From positions 186,001 through 250,000 of the forward strand of contig JUEB01000033.1 of the NCBI GenBank assembly GCA_000802095.1: 64,000 nucleotides of DNA, in the 5' to 3' direction. The translations under genes and the position numbers were made by a program. A model generated the notes under the pieces. It had not been told where the DNA came from, searched no databases, and was given only the letters and a program-made list of their open reading frames with translations. The stretch comes from Peptococcaceae bacterium BICA1-7. GTDB lineage: Bacteria > Bacillota > Desulfotomaculia > Desulfotomaculales > Desulfocucumaceae. This document shows positions 3,665 to 44,627 of the stretch, piece after piece. The first letter of the stretch is position 1. The number at the start of each line of letters is the position of its first letter.

Positions 3665-3980
3665 TTATGGTCGGGAGACAGGAGACAGGAGTTTTGAAAG
3701 CCTGGCTTTGGGGTCTTATAAAGCCACAGAGGACACAGAGATCACAGAGAAAAAACTAACAGGTACTACTATCAGGTCTGTAGTTCGGAATTCTACAATT
3801 TGAGAGCTATTCCAGTAGTTCTCTAGAACATTTAGTAAAATTATTATTAAAACATTCAAGCAGGGCTTAAAAACCTCTGTGTCCTCTGTGTTCTCTGTGG
3901 TTAAAAAAGGACCCAATTTTCATCTTCCTGGGTGGCCGTATTAGGCGGCCCGGGGGTCTGAATTCTGTATTCTGACCGGT
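3665..3980. repeat. Composite inverted intergenic repeat (CCACAGAG / CTCTGTGG arms)
   Basis: After argF, GGGAGACAGGAGACAGGAG leads into AAAGCCACAGAGGACACAGAG (about 3719-3738). About 130 bases later the complement returns (CCTCTGTGTCCTCTGTGTTC, 3870-3889), giving long inverted arms. A GAATTCTGTATTCTGACC word closes the block (3960-3977). The same architecture lies after leuB (21250-21450) and, with one arm, after glmS. Apart from the argG promoter region, the argF-argG gap holds nothing else. An ORF through the right arm is only repeat sequence. Confidence 0.8.
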
Positions 3981-4069: not shown

Positions 4070-5275
4070 ATGAAAAAAATAGTGTTGGCATATTCCGGGG
4101 GGCTGGATACCTCCATTATTATTCCCTGGCTGAAGGAAAGCTACGGCTATGAGGTTATAGCCATGGCCGCCGACCTGGGGCAGGGGGAGGAACTGGAGCC
4201 CCTGGAGGGAAAAGCTATTAAAAGCGGGGCCTTGAAGATTTACATCGAGGATGTGAAAAAGGAATTTGTAGAGGACTACATATATCCCACCCTCAGGGCC
4301 GGGGCGCTCTATGAGGGCAAATACCTGCTGGGCACCTCCATGGCCAGACCCCTTATTGCCAAAAAGCTGGTGGAGATTGCCGAAAAGGAGGGGGCAGTGG
4401 CAGTGGCCCACGGGGCCACCGGCAAGGGCAACGATCAGGTGCGCTTTGAGCTGACCGTAAAGGCCTTAAACCCCGACCTGAGTATAGTGGCCCCCTGGAG
4501 GGAGTGGGACATAAGGTCCAGGGAGGACGCCATCGACTATGCCAGCGCCAGGGACATCCCTGTGCCTGTGACCAAGGAGCGCCCGTACAGCATGGACCGT
4601 AACATCTGGCATTTGAGCCACGAGGGAGGGGACCTGGAAGACCCGGCCCTGGAGTGCCCGGACGATGTGCTGCTGCTGACGGTTTCTCCTGAAAAGGCCC
4701 CGGACAGGCCCACCTACGTGGAGATAGAGTTTGAAAAGGGCATCCCTGTGAAGCTGGAAGGGCAGTCCATAGACCCGGTGGGACTGGTGGAAAGGCTTAA
4801 CTCCGTGGGCGGGGCCAACGGCGTTGGTGTGGTGGACATGGTGGAAAACAGGCTGGTGGGCATGAAGTCCAGGGGTGTTTACGAGACCCCCGGCGGGACC
4901 ATACTGTGGCAGGCCCACAGAGAGCTGGAGCGCCTTACCCTGGACAGGATCACCCTGCACTACAAGGAGCTGGTGGCTGCCCGGTACGCCGAGCTGGTTT
5001 ATGACGGGGTCTGGTTCTCCCCGCTAAGGGAGGCCCTGGACGCCTTTGTGGATGTTACCCAAAAGACGGTAACCGGAAAGGTGCGCATGAAGCTCTACAA
5101 GGGCAACTGCACCCCGGCCGGGGTGACTTCCCCGTACTCCCTCTACAACCAGGAGCTGGCCACCTTCAGCCGGGACGAGATATACAGCCAGAAGGACGCC
5201 GAGGGCTTTATCAATCTCTTCGGCCTGCCGCTTAAGGTAAGAGCGCTGATGGAAAAGCAGTCCGGCCTCAGGTAG
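4070..5275 (+). CDS. argG: Argininosuccinate synthase
   Basis: Condenses citrulline and aspartate using ATP to give argininosuccinate. The N-terminal PP-loop [17 protein letters not shown] marks the N-type ATP pyrophosphatase fold, and [15 protein letters not shown] is the family's nucleotide/citrulline-binding segment. [23 protein letters not shown] and the C-terminal [11 protein letters not shown] region are also typical. It has 401 residues, the normal size. The start has a good ribosome site (AAAGGAGACGAG) eight bases or so before the ATG. A strong hairpin follows the stop. argH, the next pathway step, is 3.9 kb downstream, beyond an inverted block of four unrelated genes. Confidence 0.97.
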
Positions 5276-5290
5276 AATAAACAAAAACCA

Positions 5291-5321
5291 TAAAGCCCGC
5301 CATCGGTTATGGCGGGCTTTA
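5291..5321. terminator. Bidirectional terminator between argG and dsrC
   Basis: The stem AAAGCCCGCCA / TGGCGGGCTTT has a short loop and lies between two convergent genes. Read on the minus strand it ends in GGTTTTTG, a usable T-tract for dsrC. Nearly the same stem is re-used at 5888-5918. Confidence 0.85.
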
Positions 5322-5350
5322 ACATCCGGTGGGCGCAGCAAGGAGAGTAT

Positions 5351-5668
5351 CTACACGCAGCCGGTGGGCCTGGGCAGCCCTGCCAGTTTGCAGGCGCCTT
5401 TTAAAGGGCCGGTGGGGAACAGCTCATAAATATTCTTCAGGCTGTTGCCTGTTTCAATGCAAAGCTTTCGGACCATGGGAGCAAGCTGAAACCTGGTGTA
5501 ATATTCCCTAAGATAGCGGATAACTTTCCAGTGGTCCTCGGAAAGTTCATGGACCCATTCATCAGGGGCACAAAAAGCAGCTACATCCTCATCCCACTGG
5601 TCAGGATCGACCACGAATCCATCCTCATCCAGTACAATATCTCTCCCGTTCACACTGATGGTGGGCAT
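5351..5668 (-). CDS. dsrC: DsrC/TusE-family sulfur relay protein with both C-terminal cysteines
   Basis: A 105-residue protein of the DsrC/DsvC/TusE family. The flexible C-terminal arm CKLAGLPRPTGCV keeps the two cysteines spaced C-x10-C, with the last one penultimate. In dissimilatory sulfite reducers these form the trisulfide that carries sulfite-derived sulfur from DsrAB to the membrane complex DsrMKJOP. TusE proteins of tRNA thiolation normally keep only the last cysteine, so the two-cysteine arm argues for a DsrC role. Other family marks are WDEDVAAFCAPDEWVHELSEDHW and the helix IRYLREYYTRF. It stands alone on the minus strand between two terminators; no dsrAB or tus genes are in the window. 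Confidence 0.93.
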   Translation of the reverse strand: MPTISVNGRDIVLDEDGFVVDPDQWDEDVAAFCAPDEWVHELSEDHWKVIRYLREYYTRFQLAPMVRKLCIETGNSLKNIYELFPTGPLKGACKLAGLPRPTGCV

Positions 5669-5887
5669 TAAGTAAACACCTCTTTTATGATCAGTTTTTC
5701 TGACGCCCTACTTGTGCCGGATACAGATTAGTCAGGTATCGTTGCGCTTTATAGGTGTTATTTTAAATTTTTTCACATGTTTATCGTACCACCTTGCAGA
5801 CGTAATGTTAAATTGGGGTTTCTTATATTGAGCATAATTATAGCTTATAGTTTAGCGCAGACCCTTAAGCAAAATATAGAAAAACAA

Positions 5888-5918
5888 TTAAGCCCGCCAA
5901 CGTTAATGGCGGGCTTAA
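5888..5918 (-). terminator. Terminator after the MTA/SAH deaminase gene
   Basis: The stem TTAAGCCCGCCA / TGGCGGGCTTAA lies 26 bases past the stop of the minus-strand deaminase gene. On that strand it is followed by TTGTTTTTC. It is almost identical to the argG/dsrC terminator. Confidence 0.85.
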
Positions 5919-5943
5919 TGATCCTGTAATATCAGTTATCCAT

Positions 5944-7242
5944 TTATACACAGAGTATTTTCCCGGCGCACTGCCGGGCCTTTTTCATGACCTCTTTTTC
6001 GTCCATGGTGAGCAGCACCCTGTTTTCCATAACTATCCGACCGTCTATGATGGTGGTTTCCACATCGGCGCCGGTGGCTGAATAGGCCAGCAGAGAGGAT
6101 ATGTCATTATGGGGATACAGATGGGGCTTTTCTATGTCTATTATAATAATGTCGGCCTTTTTCCCCTCCTCCAGGGCGCCGGTCTCCCCTTCCAGCCCCA
6201 GCGCCCTGGAGCCCTCTACCGTGGCCATGCGCAGCACCTCGTAGGCCGTTATGGCGGCCGGGTCCCCCAGGTGGTTTTTCTGCAGCCAGGCAGCGGTTTT
6301 TATTTGCTGGAACATGTCCAGGGTGGAGGCGCTGCCCGCCCCGTCGGTGCCAAGGCCGACGGCTATCCCGGCCCTGCGCAGGTCCACCACCGGGGCCACC
6401 CCGCAGCCCAGCTTCATGTTGCTTACCGGGTTGTGCGAAATACCCCCTTTAATACCCCTCAGAATGGAAATATCCTCCACGGTCAGGTGCACCCCGTGGG
6501 CCAGCAGCACCGGGCAGGAGTCAAACAGCCCCAGGCCGGCCAGGTACCCGGTGGGTGACTTGCCGTACATTTCCCCTATCTGGTCCACCTCCTCTGAGGT
6601 TTCGGCCAGGTGAATGTGGACAGCGGCCTTCAGCTCGGCGGCCAGGTCGATTACCAGCCGCATCTTGTCCGGGGGGACGGTGTAGGGGGCGTGGGGGCCC
6701 ACCATGGCGGTAATTCTCCCATCGGCCTGGCCATGCCAGTTTTGAAAAAGTCTGTAGGTATATTTAATTCTCTTGCTCCAGCCTCTTTCATCACGGAAGG
6801 CCAGGCCCTGGCACAGTGAGGCCCTCATACCGGAGCACTGCACTGCGGCGGCCACATCCTCCATAAAGGCATACATGTCGGCAAAGGTGGTGGTTCCGGA
6901 CCTGATCATCTCCGCAGAGGCCAGCATGGTGCCCCAGTATATTTCCTCTCCCCTTATCCGTGCCTCGGCGGGCCATATTTTTTTACTGAGCCAGTCCATT
7001 AGCCTCAGATCGTCTGAATATCCCCTAAAAAGTGCCATGGCCGCGTGGCTGTGGCAGTTGATAAGCCCAGGCATCACCACCCTGCCCCCGGCGTCGATAA
7101 CCTTCTCCACACCTTCCGGCGGGAGGTTTTGACCTATTTTTGATATTCTATCCCCTTCTACAAGGACGTCCTTTTTTAAAATGTCAGGGCTACAGGAGGC
7201 CATTGACAGGACAAGCCCGTTTTTTATTAAAACTTTCTCCAT
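5944..7242 (-). CDS. mtaD: 5-methylthioadenosine/S-adenosylhomocysteine deaminase
   Basis: Zinc amidohydrolase of the MtaD/SsnA/TrzN group, expected to deaminate MTA and SAH to the inosine forms in methionine salvage. The metal site is readable: HSH in NCHSHAAMALFRG, HIHLAETSEE, the histidine in LLAHGVHLTVEDI, and the aspartate in VGLGTDGAGSASTLDM. Further family signatures are GPHAPYTVPP and SHNPVSNMKLGCGVAPV. The C-terminal part (ADIIIIDIEKPHLYP) is the composite sheet domain. At 432 residues it is normal size. Isolated minus-strand gene; other guanine or chlorohydrolase-type deaminases share these motifs, so the exact substrate is inferred. Confidence 0.88.
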   Translation of the reverse strand: MEKVLIKNGLVLSMASCSPDILKKDVLVEGDRISKIGQNLPPEGVEKVIDAGGRVVMPGLINCHSHAAMALFRGYSDDLRLMDWLSKKIWPAEARIRGEEIYWGTMLASAEMIRSGTTTFADMYAFMEDVAAAVQCSGMRASLCQGLAFRDERGWSKRIKYTYRLFQNWHGQADGRITAMVGPHAPYTVPPDKMRLVIDLAAELKAAVHIHLAETSEEVDQIGEMYGKSPTGYLAGLGLFDSCPVLLAHGVHLTVEDISILRGIKGGISHNPVSNMKLGCGVAPVVDLRRAGIAVGLGTDGAGSASTLDMFQQIKTAAWLQKNHLGDPAAITAYEVLRMATVEGSRALGLEGETGALEEGKKADIIIIDIEKPHLYPHNDISSLLAYSATGADVETTIIDGRIVMENRVLLTMDEKEVMKKARQCAGKILCV

Positions 7243-10579: not shown

Positions 10580-10905
10580 TGACACCATCTGGAGGATTCT
10601 GTATACTGTAAAGCATGAAAAAGGCAGTGATGGGGAGCAAGTAGCCACGTGTATTGGCCTTCAGAGAGCCGGGCCAGCTGAAATCCGGCGCCAGCACAGG
10701 TGAAAACATCGCCCCGGAGCCGCAGGCTGAAAGATAGACAGTATCCAGTAGGCTGTGCCGGGTTAGTCACCCGTTACCAAAGCTGTGTCCTGATAGGGAC
10801 ACATAAGAGGCTTTTCGCCGTAAGGCGGAAGGCAATCAGGGTGGTACCGCGTGAGTAACCTCTCGTCCCTGGCAGTTTTATTCGACTGCCGGGCGGGAGG
10901 TTTAA
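10580..10905 (+). ncRNA. T-box leader RNA, probable isoleucine (ATC) specifier
   Basis: The conserved T-box AGGGTGGTACCGCG is at 10838-10851. Upstream, Stem I features are seen: GGGGAGCAAGTAGCC near 10632-10646, AGAGAGCCGGG, and GGTGAAAACATCGCCCCGGA. In this arrangement ATC at 10708-10710 is the best specifier-codon candidate, which would make the leader sense uncharged tRNA-Ile. The T-box can pair with the 5' arm of the terminator that follows. It precedes ilvD and thus plausibly controls the whole branched-chain cluster. The T-box call is firm; the specifier rests on position relative to GGAGC. Confidence 0.93.
10857..10905 (+). terminator. T-box-controlled terminator
   Basis: The stem AACCTCTCGTCC(C)TGGCAG pairs with CTGCCGGGCGGGAGGTT across a TTTTATTCGA loop and is followed by TAATTTATT. 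Its 5' arm overlaps the segment that would pair with the T-box in the antiterminator. Confidence 0.85.
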
Positions 10906-21242: not shown

Positions 21243-21455
21243 ATCTCTGTCAGGAGACAGGAGTTTTGAAAGCCTGGCTGTGAGGTCTTTATAAAGCCAC
21301 AGAGGTCACAGAGAATTTGCTAAATGCATTACTCTTAGGTCTGAAACCTATATAAAAAGTAGGAGTTTGCCTTTTCCAATTCATATAATATTAAACACTC
21401 TTAAAGCATTCAGGCAGGGCTTAAAACCTCTGTGTCCTCTGTGGCAAATAAAGAC
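21243..21455. repeat. Inverted intergenic repeat after leuB (second full copy)
   Basis: GTCAGGAGACAGGAGTTTTG leads to AAAGCCACAGAGGTCACAGAG (about 21293-21313). The complementary arm AAAACCTCTGTGTCCTCTGTGG returns at about 21423-21444. AGGAGTTTTGAAAGCCTGGCT and CAGGGCTTAAAA match the copy after argF (3665-3980). The arms could form a long stem between leuB and cimA. Confidence 0.8.
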
Positions 21456-26765: not shown

Positions 26766-26883
26766 TACTGCAGTATTAGCATTAGAGGAAGGTATTTATC
26801 ATATATAGGTTGAATAGTTAGTAGTGAAAGTAGAACATTAGTGCGGGGGGTGATGCCCGGGGGATTGATCCGACAACTGAATT

Positions 26884-27118
26884 AAAGCGCCAGAGCCCGC
26901 TTAGAAGTTAGATGTTAGATGTTAGAAGCAATTGGCATAAAGCCAATTGCAACAAGAATCCAACTTCCAGCTTCCAATTTCCAACTTCCAGGTGCGGCTG
27001 ACGAGGGGGGAGTTTATCGAAATTTCGGCGGGTGCTCCCCGGTGAGCCACCATCGTTAGAGACATTACAAATCCGGCGGGTAACCGCCGGGACAAAAATG
27101 TCCTCAGTGGCTTATAGG
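26884..27118 (+). ncRNA. glmS ribozyme with a repeat insertion in the P1 loop
   Basis: The cleavage region AAAGCGCCAGAGC (26884-26896) matches the glmS consensus, with cleavage expected just before G26887. The core continues at GCGGCTGACGAGG (26994-27006), TTATCGAAATTTCGGCGGGTG (27014-27034) and TCCCCGGTGAGCCACC, then the P3/P4 part with GGCGGGTAACCGCC and GACAAAAATGTCCTCAGTGGC. GlcN6P-dependent self-cleavage lowers glmS expression in Firmicutes. P1 (GCCCGC/GCGGC) is capped by about 92 extra bases at 26901-26992 that form their own long hairpin. P1 length varies naturally, so activity may survive. Confidence 0.92.
26901..26992. repeat. Hairpin-forming repeat inserted in the ribozyme P1 loop
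   Basis: The left arm is made of TTAGAAGTTAGATG-type words (26901-26928) and the right arm of CCAACTTCCAGC and CCAATTTCCAACTTCCAG words (26960-26991). The centre is CAATTGGCATAAAGCCAATTG. The arms are about three-quarters complementary. It resembles the other simple-word intergenic repeats in style but uses different words. Confidence 0.75.
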
Positions 27119-29134: not shown

Positions 29135-29245
29135 CTCGGTCGGGAGACAGGAGACAGTATACAGGAGACAGGAGTTTGAATGACCGGCCCTGAGGTCTTT
29201 TTAAAGCCACAGAGAACACAGAGGGCACAGAGAAAATCTTAATAT
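29135..29245. repeat. Intergenic repeat after glmS (GGAGACAGGAG + CCACAGAG arm)
   Basis: GTCGGGAGACAGGAGACAG, TACAGGAGACAGGAGTTTG and AAAGCCACAGAGAACACAGAG follow in the same order as after argF and leuB. The complementary CTCTGTGG arm is missing here, so this copy is half-length. Confidence 0.75.
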
Positions 29246-35703: not shown

Positions 35704-35826
35704 GTAAAATAAAACATCAAATTTACAGCAGACTACGTACTCAAAGGGGACTATGTGGTCTGGCTCTTAAATTGTTTGCCGGCTTAGACGCCAGGGTGGA
35801 GGTGGCGGGGAGGATCATGCCCGGCT
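35704..35826 (+). repeat. Dispersed repeat with small-protein gene fragment, copy 1
   Basis: It begins GTAAAATAAAACATCAAATT and continues CTCAAAGGGGACTATGTGGT and CTGGCTCTTAAATTG. Its last 42 bases match the 5' half of the gene at 34690 (GACGCCAGGGTGGAGGTGG). A second copy with the same boundaries is at 44682-44838. This copy ends inside a riboswitch remnant. Confidence 0.85.
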
Positions 35827-35890
35827 TAGCGAAAGCTAAGGACGCAAAGCCAGGGGTCTAAAGCAGATTGCCATGACAGCCGGTTGCAGC
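35823..35890 (+). ncRNA. 5'-truncated cyclic-di-GMP-I (GEMM) riboswitch
   Basis: The GAAA-tetraloop hairpin CTTAGCGAAAGCTAAG is followed directly by the diagnostic GGACGCAAAGCC and then AGGGGTCTAAAG and CATGACAGCCGGTTGC, as in GEMM-I aptamers. The 5' strand that should carry GGNAAAC just before the hairpin is absent; the dispersed repeat ends there (GCCCGGCT). So half of the helix and the ligand-binding pocket are missing. A terminator follows before a secreted-peptide gene. Ligand binding is unlikely in this form. Confidence 0.8.
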
Positions 35891-35905
35891 CTGAAGTTTT
35901 TAAAG

Positions 35906-38934: not shown

Positions 38935-39264
38935 TCAGTATAAATCAATGGTTAATTCAAAATCTCCTGTATTCACCTCAACCGCCCGCCAGCTTCCCAT
39001 ACGGCGCAGTTCGTCGATGGCTTCCCTGCACAGGGCCACGGCCCGGAGGGGCTGGAAACCGGCGAGAAACGATTTATGAGTGCGGCTTAAGTGCGGCTGG
39101 CTGAGGGCTTTCCCACGAAAAACCCCGGCAGTTTTCTCCCACAGCCAGGCCAGGTCGGCGACGGCTTCCAGGGTCACGTCCAGTACGGGTAAGAAGATTG
39201 GTATGGTAAACCCTTTTCCATTTTTCCTTATTCGCACAAAAACAAAGTAACTGCGGCGTGGCAT
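38935..39264 (-). CDS. Hypothetical protein in YvlD-type operon
   Basis: 109 residues, no family recognised. N-terminal MPRRSYFVFVRIRKNGKGFT and a helical middle; the end (GSWRAVEVNTGDFELTIDLY) is acidic beta-like. It starts one base after the stop of the SHOCT-like gene and ends 16 bases before yvlD, so it is part of that operon. Confidence 0.6.
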   Translation of the reverse strand: MPRRSYFVFVRIRKNGKGFTIPIFLPVLDVTLEAVADLAWLWEKTAGVFRGKALSQPHLSRTHKSFLAGFQPLRAVALCREAIDELRRMGSWRAVEVNTGDFELTIDLY

Positions 39265-39265
39265 G

Positions 39266-39676
39266 CTAGTCCACATAGACCTCCACCCTTACTCTTCCTT
39301 CTTCCTGGTCCTCAACGTCGATATCGACCAATTTTTCATCTACCAGGCCCTGGTCGATAATCTGCATCAATTCTTCCAGGTTCATACTGGTAAGATCTAT
39401 CCCTTTCTTTTGCATCTCCAGGTGTGCGTCTTCCGGGATAAACTTCATGCCGAAGACGGCCACCTTGGAAAAAGCCTTCATCAGTTTCAAGGGAATGTTG
39501 ATATTTACTTTCTTTGTTTTGTCCCCGCTCACGCGTACCCGGAGAAACCTGTCAGGGCCGGTGTAGGACGGCTTTACCTCCGTCTCTTCAAGCGCTTTCA
39601 GCAAATCCATACCCTCGGCAGGAGTAATTTTCCCCTCCTGGATCATTTCCAAAATTTTAATTTTTTCGCTGCTCAT
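39266..39676 (-). CDS. SHOCT-like/YvlB-LiaX N-terminal domain protein
   Basis: 136 residues. The start EKIKILEMIQEGKITPAEGM is the SHOCT-like oligomerisation motif found at the front of YvlB and LiaX proteins. A basic strand region (FLRVRVSGDKTKKVNINIP) and an acidic tail (DVEDQEEGRVRVEVYVD) follow. AAGGAG ribosome site. The operon with DUF2089 and YvlD suggests an antimicrobial-peptide or envelope-stress response. Confidence 0.75.
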   Translation of the reverse strand: MSSEKIKILEMIQEGKITPAEGMDLLKALEETEVKPSYTGPDRFLRVRVSGDKTKKVNINIPLKLMKAFSKVAVFGMKFIPEDAHLEMQKKGIDLTSMNLEELMQIIDQGLVDEKLVDIDVEDQEEGRVRVEVYVD

Positions 39677-39709
39677 TTTGATTTAACTCCTTCCAATCAT
39701 TGCAGTGGT

Positions 39710-40102
39710 CTACTTGCCGGCTTTTTTAAGCTGCCGAACAGCATCCTGGGGAGTGATTTCCCCTTTCTCCAGGGATAGCAGTATTTTTTGCCGATTTTCC
39801 TTGTCTTCCTGGAGGTCGACCTTTTCCGCCCGGTAGCCCAAGGCCTGAATAACCCCCTCCAGGCGGTTTCTGACCGTGGGATAGGAAATACCCAGTTCTT
39901 TTTCTACGTCCTTTATGCTCCCCCGGCATTTAATAAATACTTCTATAAACTCCACCTGCTCGTTTGGGAGACGGCAGAATTTGCATGTTTCAAATTCACC
40001 TTCCAGCTTTGACTGACAGTGCGTACAGCTCAGTTTGCTCACCAGCATTTCGTGGCCGCAGACGGGGCAGCGGCCCGGATACCTGTATTTGATTAAAATC
40101 AC
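39710..40102 (-). CDS. DUF2089 zinc-ribbon/HTH regulator
   Basis: A zinc ribbon with two CxxC pairs (CPVCGHEMLVSKLSCTHC) and a third pair (CKFC) precedes a helix-turn-helix (SIKDVEKELGISYPTVRNRL). A short SHOCT-like helix (ILLSLEKGEITPQDAVRQL) ends it, matching the N-terminus of the next protein. DUF2089 proteins are predicted regulators of yvl-like operons. The start is unclear: an ideal AGGAGG lies inside the GTG at 40102, an ATG at 40153 has no ribosome site, and ATC at 40093 has perfect spacing, so a non-standard start is possible. Confidence 0.8.
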   Translation of the reverse strand: MILIKYRYPGRCPVCGHEMLVSKLSCTHCQSKLEGEFETCKFCRLPNEQVEFIEVFIKCRGSIKDVEKELGISYPTVRNRLEGVIQALGYRAEKVDLQEDKENRQKILLSLEKGEITPQDAVRQLKKAGK

Positions 40103-40291
40103 CTCCTGACAGTATTTTGAATGAGTTTTATATTCTTTAGAATAATTTAGCATGGCACATTAAATATGTCAATGCAATGATTAAAAATATTAATATACAA
40201 ATTAATTTAATGAATATAATATTAAAAAATATTAAATGGGTTCAATGCGGTGCCTGGCACCACTCGCCTTTAATTTGTACGGGTGAACAAA

Positions 40292-40324
40292 TACTGGAAG
40301 ACATATTGAATTCCGGAGTATAAT
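40292..40324 (+). promoter_or_regulatory. Promoter with MerR-like dyad, methyltransferase 2
   Basis: TGGAAG (40295-40300), 18 bases, TATAAT (40319-40324). The flanks AACAAATACTGGAAG and AATTCCGGAGTATAATT match those at 37754-37792. Confidence 0.55.
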
Positions 40325-40368
40325 TTAGATGCCAGGTGTGATGAAATACAGCATAGGAGGGTTTGATT

Positions 40369-41078
40369 ATGGGTGAGCCGCCATGGGTATATAATGAAAT
40401 GCGACAAATAGGCACCGACTACTTTGACTTTGAAGAGGTGCGAAAATATGACAGCCGAATGCAAAAAATAAGGGACGTGCACAAGGAAGTAAAACATATA
40501 CTGGAGATTATAGATGCAGGCCCTGGTCAAAACATATTGGAATTCGGCGCCGGCACCGGGGAATTCGCCATAGCCGCCGCCGCAAAATGCAGCAAGGTAT
40601 ACGCCCTGGATATTTCAGCGGTTATGCTTGATTATGCCAGGCAAAAGGCAGAGTCGCTAGGGTTGAATAATATAATTTTTCAACAGGCCGGGTTTCTTAC
40701 TATCAACACCAGGAGATGCCGCTGGATGCTGTGGTTACCCAGTTAGCCCTTCATCACTTGCCCGACTTCTGGAAATTTGTTGCCCTGCGTAACATTTATG
40801 GATTCTTGAAAACTGGTGGAAAACTGTATTTACGGGATGTGGTTTTTGATTCCGGGGTGGAAAACTACAATGAGTATTTTAGCGGCTGGCGGGATTCTGT
40901 GTTGAAGATGGCCGGTGAGGAGTTTGCCGCCAGTATTGACAGGCACATAAGAGATGAATACTCAACTCTGGACTGGGTGATGGAAGGCATGATTACCAGG
41001 GCCGGTTTTGAGCTAAATGAGGTATATCAGCCGGGATATTGCAATAAAGCCTATCTTTGCGTGAAATCAGTTAAATAA
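40369..41078 (+). pseudogene. SAM-dependent methyltransferase with one frameshift
   Basis: The first frame gives GEPPWVYNEMRQIGTDYFDF and the SAM motif ILEFGAGTGEFAIAAAA, VYALDISAVMLDYARQKA, up to FQQAGFLT near 40700. The continuation YQHQEMPLDAVVTQLALHHL, then FLKTGGKLYLRDVVFDS to the stop at 41078 is in the next frame, so one base is missing near 40700. The joined product would be about 236 residues, the normal size for the UbiE/Coq5-type fold. It may be a real pseudogene or a sequencing error. ATG 40369 has GGAGG eight bases upstream. Confidence 0.85.
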
Positions 41079-41116
41079 GGTCAATCAGTACGGTGAGTTA
41101 AAATGGAGTCTATTTA

Positions 41117-41195
41117 ATGTCCATAAAAGGGGGTTCCCGATCCCGCTTTACATTTAAGAAGGATTTTTCCAGGCTGGTGGATGCCAGGGTGGAGA
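41117..41195 (+). pseudogene. Truncated paralogue of the small protein at 34690
   Basis: ATG 41117 begins SIKGGSRSRFTFKKDFSRLV and continues DARVEKV, matching the N-terminus of the 34690 product residue for residue at most positions. It then runs into a terminator hairpin and ends. About the first 26 codons are preserved. Confidence 0.75.
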
Positions 41196-41196
41196 A

Positions 41197-41237
41197 GGTC
41201 CTGAACCGCCCAATGGGAGGTTCGGGACCTTTTTTAT
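41197..41237 (+). terminator. Strong terminator
   Basis: GGTCCTGAACCGCCC pairs with GGAGGTTCGGGACC around AATG, followed by TTTTTTATT. Confidence 0.85.
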
Positions 41238-41330
41238 TACCAGAAACTATGCTATGTGGATAACTTAAAAGCCTGCTATGTGGCTGGCCTAGAAAAACAA
41301 CCTCATATGTCAACGGGTTCTCCGGCTGAA

Positions 41331-41497
41331 CCGGCTCTATAACTCGTGGCCAACGGAATACCGACCGCCCTCGAAAGGCCCGTCCTGGGCCTCTCGGGCT
41401 TCCGCAGCGTCCTGCTGCGGATCGGTATTCCATAAGCCATCTTCGTTAAGAGCCGGTAACAGCCTGCGAAAGGTTAACACAAGGGGCTGTTTTTCCT
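41331..41497 (+). ncRNA. Candidate structured RNA: Y-shaped element plus terminator
   Basis: Outer arms of about 35 bases (41331-41364 and 41422-41456) are nearly complementary, including CCGGCTCT/AGAGCCGG and GGAATACCGA/TCGGTATTCC. They enclose two hairpins with identical GTCCT loops: AGGCCC-GTCCT-GGGCCT (41376-41392) and TCCGCAGC-GTCCT-GCTGCGGA (41401-41421). A terminator-like stem ACAGCC...GGCTGT with a T-run follows (41459-41497). No protein is coded. I do not recognise a known RNA family. A mobile hairpin element is an alternative. Confidence 0.5.
41459..41497 (+). terminator. Terminator after the Y-shaped element
   Basis: AACAGCC pairs with GGCTGTT and the right arm runs into TTTTT; loop about 20 bases. 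Confidence 0.6.
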
Positions 41498-41661
41498 GCC
41501 TCTATGAATGTCGCTATTGGGTCGACTGGAGGGCGATTTTGTTCGGAACGGAGCAATGGGATATAGATTTAACCACTGGTAAAAATCTGGTATTATAGGA
41601 AAAGAGTTGTTTTGGAAAGTGTCCAGGGAAGGGAATTAATGTATTTAGGAGGTCTATTTCC

Positions 41662-43848
41662 TTGAAAAAAAACAGTAGTGGAAATAATAGCACATTCTCC
41701 TGCCGGATAACCCGGAAGAATTTTTTATTTTTCCTTTTTGTTCTTCTGGCAGCCCTAACAGCAAGCGGATGCTCCGGTTCCCCAGACTCTTCCGCCTCCC
41801 CGGCAGAGCCGGCGTCAAAGACTTCCTTCATATCACAGTTTGGTAAATATGAGGAGGCGCCGGTCAATGTCACCCCGGCCATTAAGCCATACGCTGTGGC
41901 CGGTGACCTGAGCAACATAACCAATAAAAATATGTTTGATTTTTCGGAAGCCGCCCGAAGTCTTTTGATTAAAAACTGTTTTGTGGTGGTTCCCGGCGAG
42001 CACAGAGAGTTTTTCATGCTTTATGAAACAAACAGCTATGAACCGGTGCCCAGCTTTATTACCACTGATTCCATGCTCCATAACTATCATTTGTTTTTCA
42101 GCCACCTGTTGAGGGTGGTGGAAACAGAAAAACTGGCCCCCGGGCTGAGGGAGCTTAATACGGCGATGCTGTCGGAGGCGCAAAAGCAGTACGACGGCCT
42201 TAAGGGTACCGGATGGGAGAATGCCGCCAAAAGGAATGTTGGGTTTTTTTCAGTGGGCGCAAGTATACTTGAGCCTGGCGCTGCTGTCCCGCAGACAGTT
42301 GAAGGCGAGGTAAAAAAAGAACTGGACCTTATTGAAAAGCACCAGGGTGTAGCCATATCACCGGTTATGAACACCGGTGGAAGCCTGGATGACTTAAATG
42401 CTCTAAAAGAAGATTATTCGCAGTACATACCCCGGGGTCATTATGAAAGGACAGAGCAGCTAAAAGCGTATTTTAAGGCTATGATGTGGTATGGAAGGCA
42501 GACCTTCAGGCTGAAAAACGAGGATGAAATAAAATCCGCCGTACTTATTACCATAGCTCTGGAGAGGGATCAAAACAGGCAGGGATGGGAAAAAATATAT
42601 GATCCCACCGCTTTTTTCGCGGGCAAAAGTGACGACATAACCTTTATTCAGTTCAAAGACCTGCTTGACAAAATATACGGCTCCGGGGCCGATCTTCAGA
42701 CGGTGTTGACGGACTCGCAAAAATGGGCCACCTTCCTGGAGGAGGCCGGGAAGCTGGACCCTCCGGCCATCAATTCCATGCCTGTTTTTGATCAAAACAT
42801 ACAGCCCGACCGTGAAAGGGAAATAAAGGGGTTCCGGTTTATGGGACAGCGTTTTACCATTGACGCTTCCATTTTCCAGCGGCTGGTTTACCGTGAGGTA
42901 GAGGAAAACAGCCAGGGCCAGAGGAGAATGCTGCCCAGGGGACTGGATATTCCCGCCGCCATGGGGTCAAAAGAGGCCTATGCCATTCTCAAGTCAATGG
43001 GAGAAACCGATTACCGGGACTACCCGGAAAATATGGCTAAAATGAGAGGGTACATCAAGTCTCTTGGCAAAGAGACCTGGACTCAGAACCTCTATTGGGG
43101 ATGGATGTATTCGCTGCTGCCTTTAACCGTTGAAAAACCGGAAGGATACCCATCTTTTATGCGCAGCCCGGCGTGGGATAGGAAAGATCTCAACACCTTC
43201 CTGGGCAGCTGGACAGAGTTAAAGCACGATACAGTGCTTTACGCAAAACAGGTATACGCCGAGTGCGGCGGCGGGGGGGACGTTGATGACCGCGGCTATG
43301 TGGAGCCCAGCCCGGTAGTATACGCCAGGCTTGCCTCGCTGACCGGGATGACCAGGGAGGGCCTTAAAGCACGGGATCTGTTAAACCCAAGGGACGAAGA
43401 AAGCCTCTGCAGGATGGAAAAACTGGCCCTTTACCTGAAGACAATCTCTGAAAAGGAATTAAACAATATTCCGTTATCTGACGAGGAATATCAGTTAATC
43501 CGTTCATACGGCGGCAGTTTGGAACATTTCTGGCTGGAGGCCCTGCGGGACGAGGGGATTGACCACCGGTCGGCAGCTTTCGACCGGCCGGCGGCACTGG
43601 TGACCGATGTGGCCACAGATATCGGCGGTGGCCGGGTTTTACAGGAGGCTACCGGAAAAATATACGAGATATATGCCGTGGTTCCGGTTGACGGCAAATT
43701 AAGGATTGCCAAGGGTGGGGTATATTCATATTATGAATTTCCCGGCCCGCTTGCCGACCGCTTAACCGACACAAAATGGCACAGCATGTTGGATAATGGG
43801 GAGTTGCCGGACTTGCCGGAATGGACAAGGGCTTTTATGGCGCAATGA
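41662..43848 (+). CDS. DUF3160-domain lipoprotein
   Basis: 728 residues, mostly one DUF3160 domain. Signal peptide with lipobox (FLFVLLAALTASGCSGS) and a serine/proline-rich linker place it on the outer membrane face. Family-like segments are SFITTDSMLHNYHLFFSHLL, FRFMGQRFTIDASIFQRLVY, LYWGWMYSLLPL and the C-terminal HSMLDNGELPDLPEWTRAFM. The function of DUF3160 is unknown. TTG 41662 is eight bases after AGGAGG. It overlaps the next gene by four bases, so they form an operon. Confidence 0.88.
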   Translation: MKKNSSGNNSTFSCRITRKNFLFFLFVLLAALTASGCSGSPDSSASPAEPASKTSFISQFGKYEEAPVNVTPAIKPYAVAGDLSNITNKNMFDFSEAARSLLIKNCFVVVPGEHREFFMLYETNSYEPVPSFITTDSMLHNYHLFFSHLLRVVETEKLAPGLRELNTAMLSEAQKQYDGLKGTGWENAAKRNVGFFSVGASILEPGAAVPQTVEGEVKKELDLIEKHQGVAISPVMNTGGSLDDLNALKEDYSQYIPRGHYERTEQLKAYFKAMMWYGRQTFRLKNEDEIKSAVLITIALERDQNRQGWEKIYDPTAFFAGKSDDITFIQFKDLLDKIYGSGADLQTVLTDSQKWATFLEEAGKLDPPAINSMPVFDQNIQPDREREIKGFRFMGQRFTIDASIFQRLVYREVEENSQGQRRMLPRGLDIPAAMGSKEAYAILKSMGETDYRDYPENMAKMRGYIKSLGKETWTQNLYWGWMYSLLPLTVEKPEGYPSFMRSPAWDRKDLNTFLGSWTELKHDTVLYAKQVYAECGGGGDVDDRGYVEPSPVVYARLASLTGMTREGLKARDLLNPRDEESLCRMEKLALYLKTISEKELNNIPLSDEEYQLIRSYGGSLEHFWLEALRDEGIDHRSAAFDRPAALVTDVATDIGGGRVLQEATGKIYEIYAVVPVDGKLRIAKGGVYSYYEFPGPLADRLTDTKWHSMLDNGELPDLPEWTRAFMAQ

Positions 43849-44627
43849 ATAAAAGATTAGTGGCTTTAGGGGTGATTGCCGCCGGGGCTCTTTTAATCTT
43901 TTTGCTTTACCCGGCAGTCAAGTGGGTCGTTGCAACCGGCCCAAAAGATTTTCCGGCTTTTAAAAAAGAAAAACTCAAACTTCCGGTAAAGAATGAGTCT
44001 TTATATCTAACGGTTATGGATAACAACACAAGTCCCTCCGGTGGAGAGGAATACCGCGCGGCCAATGACAAAGCCATGTTTTTCAGGGTTGGTGACCGCC
44101 GGTACTTACTTAATATACCGGAGCCTCTGCCGGAATACCGGCTGGAAAAAGTACGGAGCTTTGATATTGACAAGAACGGCCTGCATGAGAGCTACTCTTT
44201 ACAGGATGGGGTTTTAAAGGTAAATTTCGATACAAAAACAATATGGCAATCTCCTGAAAGCTGGTGGGTGGATGACTTCTTTTTAGGCGATGCCGATAAT
44301 GACGGCATTTACAATTTAAACCTGCTGGTGTGGAAGGCAGGGAGCTTCGGCTCCCGCCGCCCATTCTGGATTACCGGGGAAGACAAAAGCATAAAAAATC
44401 ACCTTTTTATATATATTCCGGCTGAAGGCTCTTTTAAGCCAATATGGCAGTCTTCAAACCTCGACTGCCCCAATTACGGGTCAGTACTTGAAGATATCGA
44501 TGATGACGGTAAAAATGAGCTTATTGTCAGCGAGGGAGATTACTCCATTCCCGGGGAAAGACGTGTCAGTGTATGGCGGTGGAACGGCTGGGGATTTTCC
44601 AGGATTCCTGTTAATCCGACATGGTGA
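43845..44627 (+). CDS. Membrane-anchored protein with FG-GAP/VCBS-like repeats
   Basis: 260 residues from the ATG overlapping the DUF3160 stop (ATGA). One N-terminal membrane segment (LVALGVIAAGALLIFLLYPA). The outside part has calcium-loop-like repeats DADNDGIYNLNLLVWKAG and DIDDDGKNELIVSEG, and a related FDIDKNGLHESYSL, as in FG-GAP/VCBS beta-propeller blades. Probably works with the DUF3160 lipoprotein on the cell surface. Function unknown. Confidence 0.75.
   Translation: MNKRLVALGVIAAGALLIFLLYPAVKWVVATGPKDFPAFKKEKLKLPVKNESLYLTVMDNNTSPSGGEEYRAANDKAMFFRVGDRRYLLNIPEPLPEYRLEKVRSFDIDKNGLHESYSLQDGVLKVNFDTKTIWQSPESWWVDDFFLGDADNDGIYNLNLLVWKAGSFGSRRPFWITGEDKSIKNHLFIYIPAEGSFKPIWQSSNLDCPNYGSVLEDIDDDGKNELIVSEGDYSIPGERRVSVWRWNGWGFSRIPVNPTW

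Follow-up and report, generated by a model that had tools for sequence, protein, structure and literature searches.

The window analysed here is a stretch of 64,000 nucleotides from Peptococcaceae bacterium BICA1-7, and the locus of interest lies in it between a methyltransferase gene and a gene encoding a DUF3160 protein. The former is divided between two overlapping frames: 40363-40746, which has Pfam methyltransferase matches above the cut-off, and 40716-41078, whose matches are weak and below it. A broken methyltransferase had already been recognised upstream in the original prediction, and we read the split gene (40363-41078) as a pseudogene or an assembly error. It is followed on the plus strand by a probable intrinsic terminator (41197-41235), identified by eye as a hairpin (41197-41229) and a T-run (41230-41235), the 36 nt preceding the T-run folding at a minimum free energy of -26.5 kcal/mol; the terminator scan missed it because its loop is too long for that scan. 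On the other side, the gene at 41662-43848, assigned to DUF3160 by Pfam, has a lipoprotein-like start as judged by eye, in agreement with the lipoprotein gene announced there, and the nearest records to its product include several from Pelotomaculum (about 70% identity), alongside MAGs with other labels. Across the window, the only structured RNAs above their Rfam gathering scores are a T-box leader (10618-10873), a glmS ribozyme (26875-27113) and a c-di-GMP-I riboswitch (35809-35891), and Rfam has no match between 39000 and 44000.

The space between the two genes holds a dispersed repeat, which starts directly behind the probable terminator and runs from 41242 to 41545 (minus strand in RNA orientation), these limits being approximate and drawn from the similarity of left and/or right ends between the window copy and copies L009, L022, L014, L104 and L012. 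Its right end is hairpin-like (41522-41540, plus strand, TCGACTGGAGGGCGATTTT), the hairpin being perfect in L009 and L012. In its middle lies a twin-hairpin core (41317-41471, minus strand). The Y-shape first described there, with outer arms of about 35 bases enclosing two hairpins, was recovered by folding, with arms at 41324-41364 and 41422-41464; the anatomy of the Y had been rightly described, and the unit as a whole extends further than had been seen. When 41320-41520 is folded, the plus strand reaches -95.7 kcal/mol (z -6.6) and the minus strand -104.9 kcal/mol (z -8.2), and none of 200 dinucleotide shuffles is as good on either strand. The pentaloop shared by both hairpins, about 27 nt apart, indeed reads GTCCT on the plus strand (41382-41386 and 41409-41413); on the minus strand, the better-supported RNA strand, both loops are AGGAC pentaloops that keep GGA. 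In this orientation, the 5' arm of the outer stem (41422-41464) is supported by the folds and the covariation analysis described below, and its 3' arm (41324-41364) by the folds, part of it being covered by covarying helices 1 and 2. Hairpin 1, the first in 5' to 3' order (41401-41421), has an 8-bp stem that corresponds to covarying helix 3 and the loop at 41409-41413, and hairpin 2 (41367-41399), with a GA bulge in its stem and the loop at 41382-41386, corresponds to covarying helices 4 and 5. The region was rightly called non-coding, as the Y-structure is overlapped by no ORF of 60 aa or more except a mechanical 107-aa frame on the minus strand.

The element had been thought to stand alone, which is not the case: 22 places in its own genome (4.75 Mb, 33 contigs) match it, window copy included, with 13 of these matches stopping short of one or both query ends and some being fragments. 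The copies adjoin unrelated genes, as judged by eye, and multiple homologous copies in unrelated contexts are what a dispersed repeat looks like. Four subtypes, A, B, T and D, have a common core and differ outside it. Subtype A comprises the window copy, L009, and L022, L012 and L104, whose interior is altered or missing; subtype B has seven copies in the genome. In the same genus, G002 carries three copies and G001 at least 18, the majority of which hardly differ from one another, and in the same family G005 and G007 carry six and nine; DNA searches of the other 36 of 41 genomes (the own genome being counted among the 41) gave no copies. Three side observations can be recorded here. L012 (12547-12690) and L104 (about 2500-2620) have the same unrelated interior between type A ends, as if cargo had been exchanged. 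A T-type copy appears to contain the start of a group II intron (matches to Rfam group-II-D1D4-2 and Intron_gpII) in L026 (about 4133-6000), which would be a mobile-in-mobile insertion. Another dispersed repeat, present in the window at 3722-3947, 21298-21445 and 29191-29223 and common to L019, also adjoins T-type elements.

The original prediction recognised no RNA family in the element, and this was wrong in substance, although Rfam thresholds miss the relationship. The family in question is TwoAYGGAY (RF01731), listed in 2010 and still of unknown function in a 2014 paper which proposed CsrA binding from its motif. The RF01731 model does not report the window copy at its gathering score (43 bits), nor up to an E-value of 1 in 39000-44000 or in a search of the whole genome. 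A covariance model, R1, was built from 18 RF01731 matches in 16 genomes; 17 of these are above the RF01731 cut-off and three are copies of other subtypes from the own genome, while subtypes A and B are not represented among them. With this model, the window copy scores 94.3 bits (E-value 4e-21) at 41317-41471 on the minus strand, or 94.2 bits with filters off. Furthermore, most T copies are RF01731 matches above the cut-off, and five of the six own-genome copies above it are 75-76% identical to the window copy. The two thus have the same twin-hairpin core with GGA loops, homology being established through R1 and BLAST, whereas TwoAYGGAY has AYGGAY hexaloops and the window copy two AGGAC pentaloops. 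The window copy is thus homologous to RF01731 but divergent; it is not a formal member, either by the Rfam threshold or by exact AYGGAY loops. In the order, RF01731 matches occur in 27 of 113 genomes, with at least 22 copies in four of the 27 and matches above the cut-off in 21; of 398 genomes sampled across the phylum, 74 have R1 matches. Two other RNA classes were considered: a HEARO/IscB guide RNA was dropped, there being no such Rfam match, and for DUF3800 RNAs the literature searches gave nothing usable.

Signs of mobility come from subtype B and from relatives in genomes G017 and G013. These copies have inverted repeats close to CAGNNTGNNGACAAA, and their outer sides usually carry the same stem-loop, followed in many cases by a T-run, which makes it an intrinsic terminator by eye. 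Of 35 copies put into the comparison, 25 passed the end criteria, and in 22 of these the two flanks resemble each other more closely than 99% of cross-copy pairs do (median score 18, cross-copy mean 6.4). The folding energies of the flanking 35-40-mers are -14.0 and -15.4 kcal/mol, compared to -7.3 for random stretches. The duplicated terminator hairpins have diverged in the flanks of L146, L152 and L139, with changes in L152 that are compensatory and keep the stem, as seen by eye; this suggests that both duplicated hairpins stay useful and are kept as hairpins. The pattern CAGNNTGTNGACAAA has 102 matches in G017, against one for the reversed control, and seven against none in the own genome; it has no match in G001, despite at least 18 copies there, nor in G005 or G007.

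Matching ends are found on transposase genes. Among 39 PF13751 transposase loci, nine match a wider TIR pattern with at most one mismatch, the control pattern occurring once in 118 kb. Five of them have the pattern beside the transposase (L175, L181, L266, L267 and L268), L175 and L181 being the same element type in G016; the match in L185 comes from the small element, of which that locus contains a copy, and one imperfect match each was found in L274, L285 and L287. In L267, both TIR ends are present, each with the same 21-bp hairpin on its outer side, and a 539-aa frame matches PF13751 and PF05598. We take PF13751 together with DUF772 (PF05598) to be the mark of the IS1182 family. The core was absent from the five IS1182-type transposase loci searched, and PF13751 has no match in the own genome, where the helper of subtype B is either missing, lost or of another kind. 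L024 and L015 were considered as autonomous elements, in which an ORF would lie between the core and one end, and were discarded: their distant pieces look like unrelated repeats, and the ORFs, judged from their translations, like ordinary host genes.

Insertion at the foot of terminator hairpins has been described, in the sources covered here, for IS1272/TnSha1 of the IS1182 family. Subtype B and the G017 and G013 copies resemble it in targeting terminator hairpins and in sharing TIRs with transposase genes that bear PF13751 and DUF772. For TnSha1, the same sources report a partial deletion of the hairpin, whereas the whole hairpin is duplicated in the IS1182-like subtype described here. Copied in this way, one hairpin per side, insertion would be nearly harmless.

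The subtype of the window copy is built differently. IS1182-type TIRs are absent from subtype A: none of the 41 own-genome matches to CAGNNTGNTGACAAAG, at up to one mismatch, is near the window copy (C33:227320), and subtypes T and D and the G001 copies also lack an IS1182-like inverted repeat. At the left ends of A, T, D and G001 copies, at least five T lie within 22 nt upstream in 17 of 21 cases, compared to 53 of 960 random positions; this count took the 21 copies with a recognisable left end and left out 11 further copies without the motif, and the T-run could partly be the element's own. No target duplication was found for the window copy. Its empty site was not found either, because a search of six relatives, run without a positive control, turned up no ortholog of the downstream DUF3160 gene. 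As the window copy shows neither, its mobility rests on the dispersed homologous copies. The original prediction had set a MITE with terminal target duplications against its RNA reading; such duplications are present in the sister subtypes, and the window copy shows none.

Copies from other genomes bring further end types. A duplicated hairpin is seen by eye in three of 40 (L307, L310 and L326), and the rest end in other ways: L320 and L340, for example, have perfect CACTGAAAAAG ends, and direct repeats lie outside the element in L339 (12 bp) and L302 (23 bp, imperfect). In L315, L316, L339, L341, L320, L340 and L302, the core sits inside elements with other inverted repeats, near CACTGCAAAAA or CACTGAAAAAG, and other transposase families may mobilise it. 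With several end types around one core, and type A ends around another interior, the core thus behaves like a cargo, for which the IS1182-like chassis is one of several; that it is the cargo of mobile elements is very probable.

We then consider whether the core is constrained as a structure. In alignment A2, of 45 distinct copies, 91.1% of 894 cells are paired, compared to 63.5% after shuffling, 19 of 20 pairs have changed on both sides, and the covariation score is 0.705 against 0.217; none of 500 shuffles is as good on any of five measures. For alignment A3, we took 20 distinct copies that R1 had found in other genomes of the phylum and that lay outside its training set. This alignment gives 91.7% paired cells against 55.8% and a covariation score of 0.873 against 0.221, and the 21 pairs with change on both sides are reached by 7 of 500 shuffles. 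Because both alignments were fitted to the model, they are biased towards its structure; sliding controls drop to 26-59% paired. An alignment-free count over 45 distinct forms of hairpin 1 finds Watson-Crick pairing in 317 of 360 cells, with almost all stem sequences changed; for hairpin 2, the figure is 195 of 264 cells over 44 forms. Both loop regions retain GGA in 41 of 45 distinct copies in A2 and 20 of 20 in A3; with the alignment-free picker, it is found in 44 of 45 forms of hairpin 1 and in 34 of 44 forms of hairpin 2, the latter figure being low partly because the picker misplaces this weaker hairpin. The compensatory changes that the original prediction proposed to look for among homologues are therefore present. 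Its proposal of a structured non-coding RNA with protein-bound loops is supported by this covariation, whose main measures no shuffle reached, and by GGA loops of the type that CsrA would bind.

As to the strand, of 86 copies 83 fold more stably as the minus strand, as do 28 of 29 groups. G.U pairs outnumber A.C in A2 (40 against 13, p 0.0003) and, as a weak signal, in A3 (9 against 4, p 0.27), counts that are not independent events, and the hairpins alone, with 17 against 10 (p 0.25), leave the strand undecided by that count. The core is thus probably a minus-strand RNA. The consensus promoter scan, which was uninformative, gave no minus-strand promoter.

The main alternative is that the element acts purely as DNA: the Y-shape would be the palindrome of a MITE, template-switch repair would keep its repeats perfect and thereby generate the covariation, and there would be no RNA function. 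The changes in the stems would fit, being almost all Watson-Crick swaps, and several subtypes resemble MITEs in having TIRs. For a diverged RNA, few pairs are G.U, namely 40 of 814 standard pairs in A2 (about 5%) and 9 of 408 in A3 (about 2%); such a scarcity is also expected from palindrome repair at the DNA level, and tells more than any other point against a pure RNA reading. Palindrome repair nevertheless leaves unexplained the conserved GGA loops, the strand-asymmetric folding, the excess of G.U over A.C in A2 and the presence of one core inside different end types, and we hold this alternative to be unlikely. The MITE nature adds to the RNA reading and does not replace it: the element has the look of a mobile one, while its core remains under structural constraint. 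Known bacterial MITEs such as BOX, RUP and SPRITE are, in the descriptions considered, likewise small repeats that form stem-loops, some of them terminator-like; here, unlike in these, the core forms an RNA family that covaries, is conserved over a wide range and occurs with several different ends.

If the core is an RNA, it could alternatively be a non-coding RNA gene that serves the host and was captured by repeats, its mobility being incidental. The wide distribution in the phylum and the strong constraint on the core would both agree with this. A copy number ranging among relatives from 0 to at least 22, and type A ends with a different interior in L012 and L104, speak against it, and we find a host gene still less likely than a purely DNA-level element.

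The terminator-like stem with a T-run, noted in the original prediction, is present on the plus strand at 41460-41493. It pairs CAGCC (41460-41464), which doubles as the base of the outer stem, with GGCTG (41484-41488), followed by TTTTT (41489-41493). This alternative stem is kept in all three type A copies that hold that stretch, with a G.T pair in two of the three; the T-run is restricted to subtype A, being missing from type B copies, and the stem is absent from the output of the terminator scan, which also missed the terminator upstream of the repeat. It would not terminate the minus-strand RNA. That the element regulates or attenuates the downstream DUF3160 gene from the plus strand, as might be imagined from the competition of this stem for the base of the outer stem and from a promoter-like site found on the plus strand by the consensus scan (41569-41596), is highly improbable, since that site lies downstream of the element, type B lacks the T-run, the copies sit beside unrelated genes and the plus strand folds worse than the minus strand.

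A partner for a minus-strand RNA is suggested by its loops. The conserved motif of the core, a hairpin whose loop A(N)GGAY is closed by C-G, equals CsrA sites as published in the papers covered, and the C-AGGAC-G loop of the window copy equals the repeated element of CsrB. In these papers, CsrB loops are described as CAGGA(U/A/C)G repeats, RsmE as binding an ANGGAN hexaloop, and the CsrA dimer as having two RNA-binding surfaces. Such a two-surfaced dimer would suit the spacing of the twin loops in the window copy. Several loop GGAs per RNA, as expected of a CsrA-binding RNA, are found in the copies of A2 and A3 counted above. Like RNAs of the CsrB/RsmZ type, as described there, the core has hairpin loops of the CAGGA(U/A/C)G or ANGGAN kind and more than one site per RNA; it differs from them in having two sites only, in its long, stable stems and in its place inside a repeated mobile element. 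Its stems, of 8-9 bp, are also longer than those reported for most CsrA SELEX ligands.

The own genome has csrA. The gene is present in 22 of 27 RF01731-positive genomes, compared to 40 of 86 negative ones (p 0.0017), a difference that is no longer significant when counted by genus (15 of 20 against 19 of 35, p 0.16). With the better genomes only, the figures are 18 of 20 and 31 of 60 (p 0.003). No csrA match was found in five RF01731-positive genomes, including G051 (95% complete), G086 (91%) and G094 (97%, with 9% contamination). CsrA is a tentative candidate for the partner of the core RNA, with a little less than an even chance of being the right one.

All these results lead us to the following reading, to which we give a probability of about 0.7: the segment 41242-41545 is a non-autonomous, dispersed mobile repeat, whose cargo is a structured core, likely a minus-strand RNA, homologous to TwoAYGGAY and with two GGA loops of CsrA type. 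Under this reading, small elements would be moved by transposases acting in trans; for subtype B, and for the related copies of G017 and G013, these would be of an IS1182-like type. By inserting into or beside terminators, the elements could accumulate without breaking genes. When transcribed, the core would present two GGA loops, each a CsrA-type site, and one CsrA dimer could bridge both hairpins. The element might in that case serve as a small decoy for CsrA; or it might recruit CsrA to transcripts of its own, or to those reading through it, and so protect or regulate them.

A bolder version can be imagined, in which a selfish family spreads by inserting at terminator hairpins and copying them, while it carries a CsrB-like twin decoy. 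Each genome would then have a variable number of CsrA sponges, transposition would tune CsrA regulation in the host, and several unrelated transposases would move the core. We regard this full picture as rather doubtful. The parts of the mobile repeat with its RNA-like cargo are of known kinds, namely RF01731, IS1182-type elements and CsrA sites, and their combination was not found in the literature searched. No link between TwoAYGGAY and mobile elements was found in that literature either.

The view of the core as a mobile cargo would explain why the distribution of TwoAYGGAY is patchy and multicopy, and it makes the proposal of CsrA binding directly testable. In Gram-positive bacteria, where FliW is, according to the sources considered, the best-known antagonist of CsrA, transposons would be a source of new copies of a regulatory RNA if this RNA does bind CsrA.
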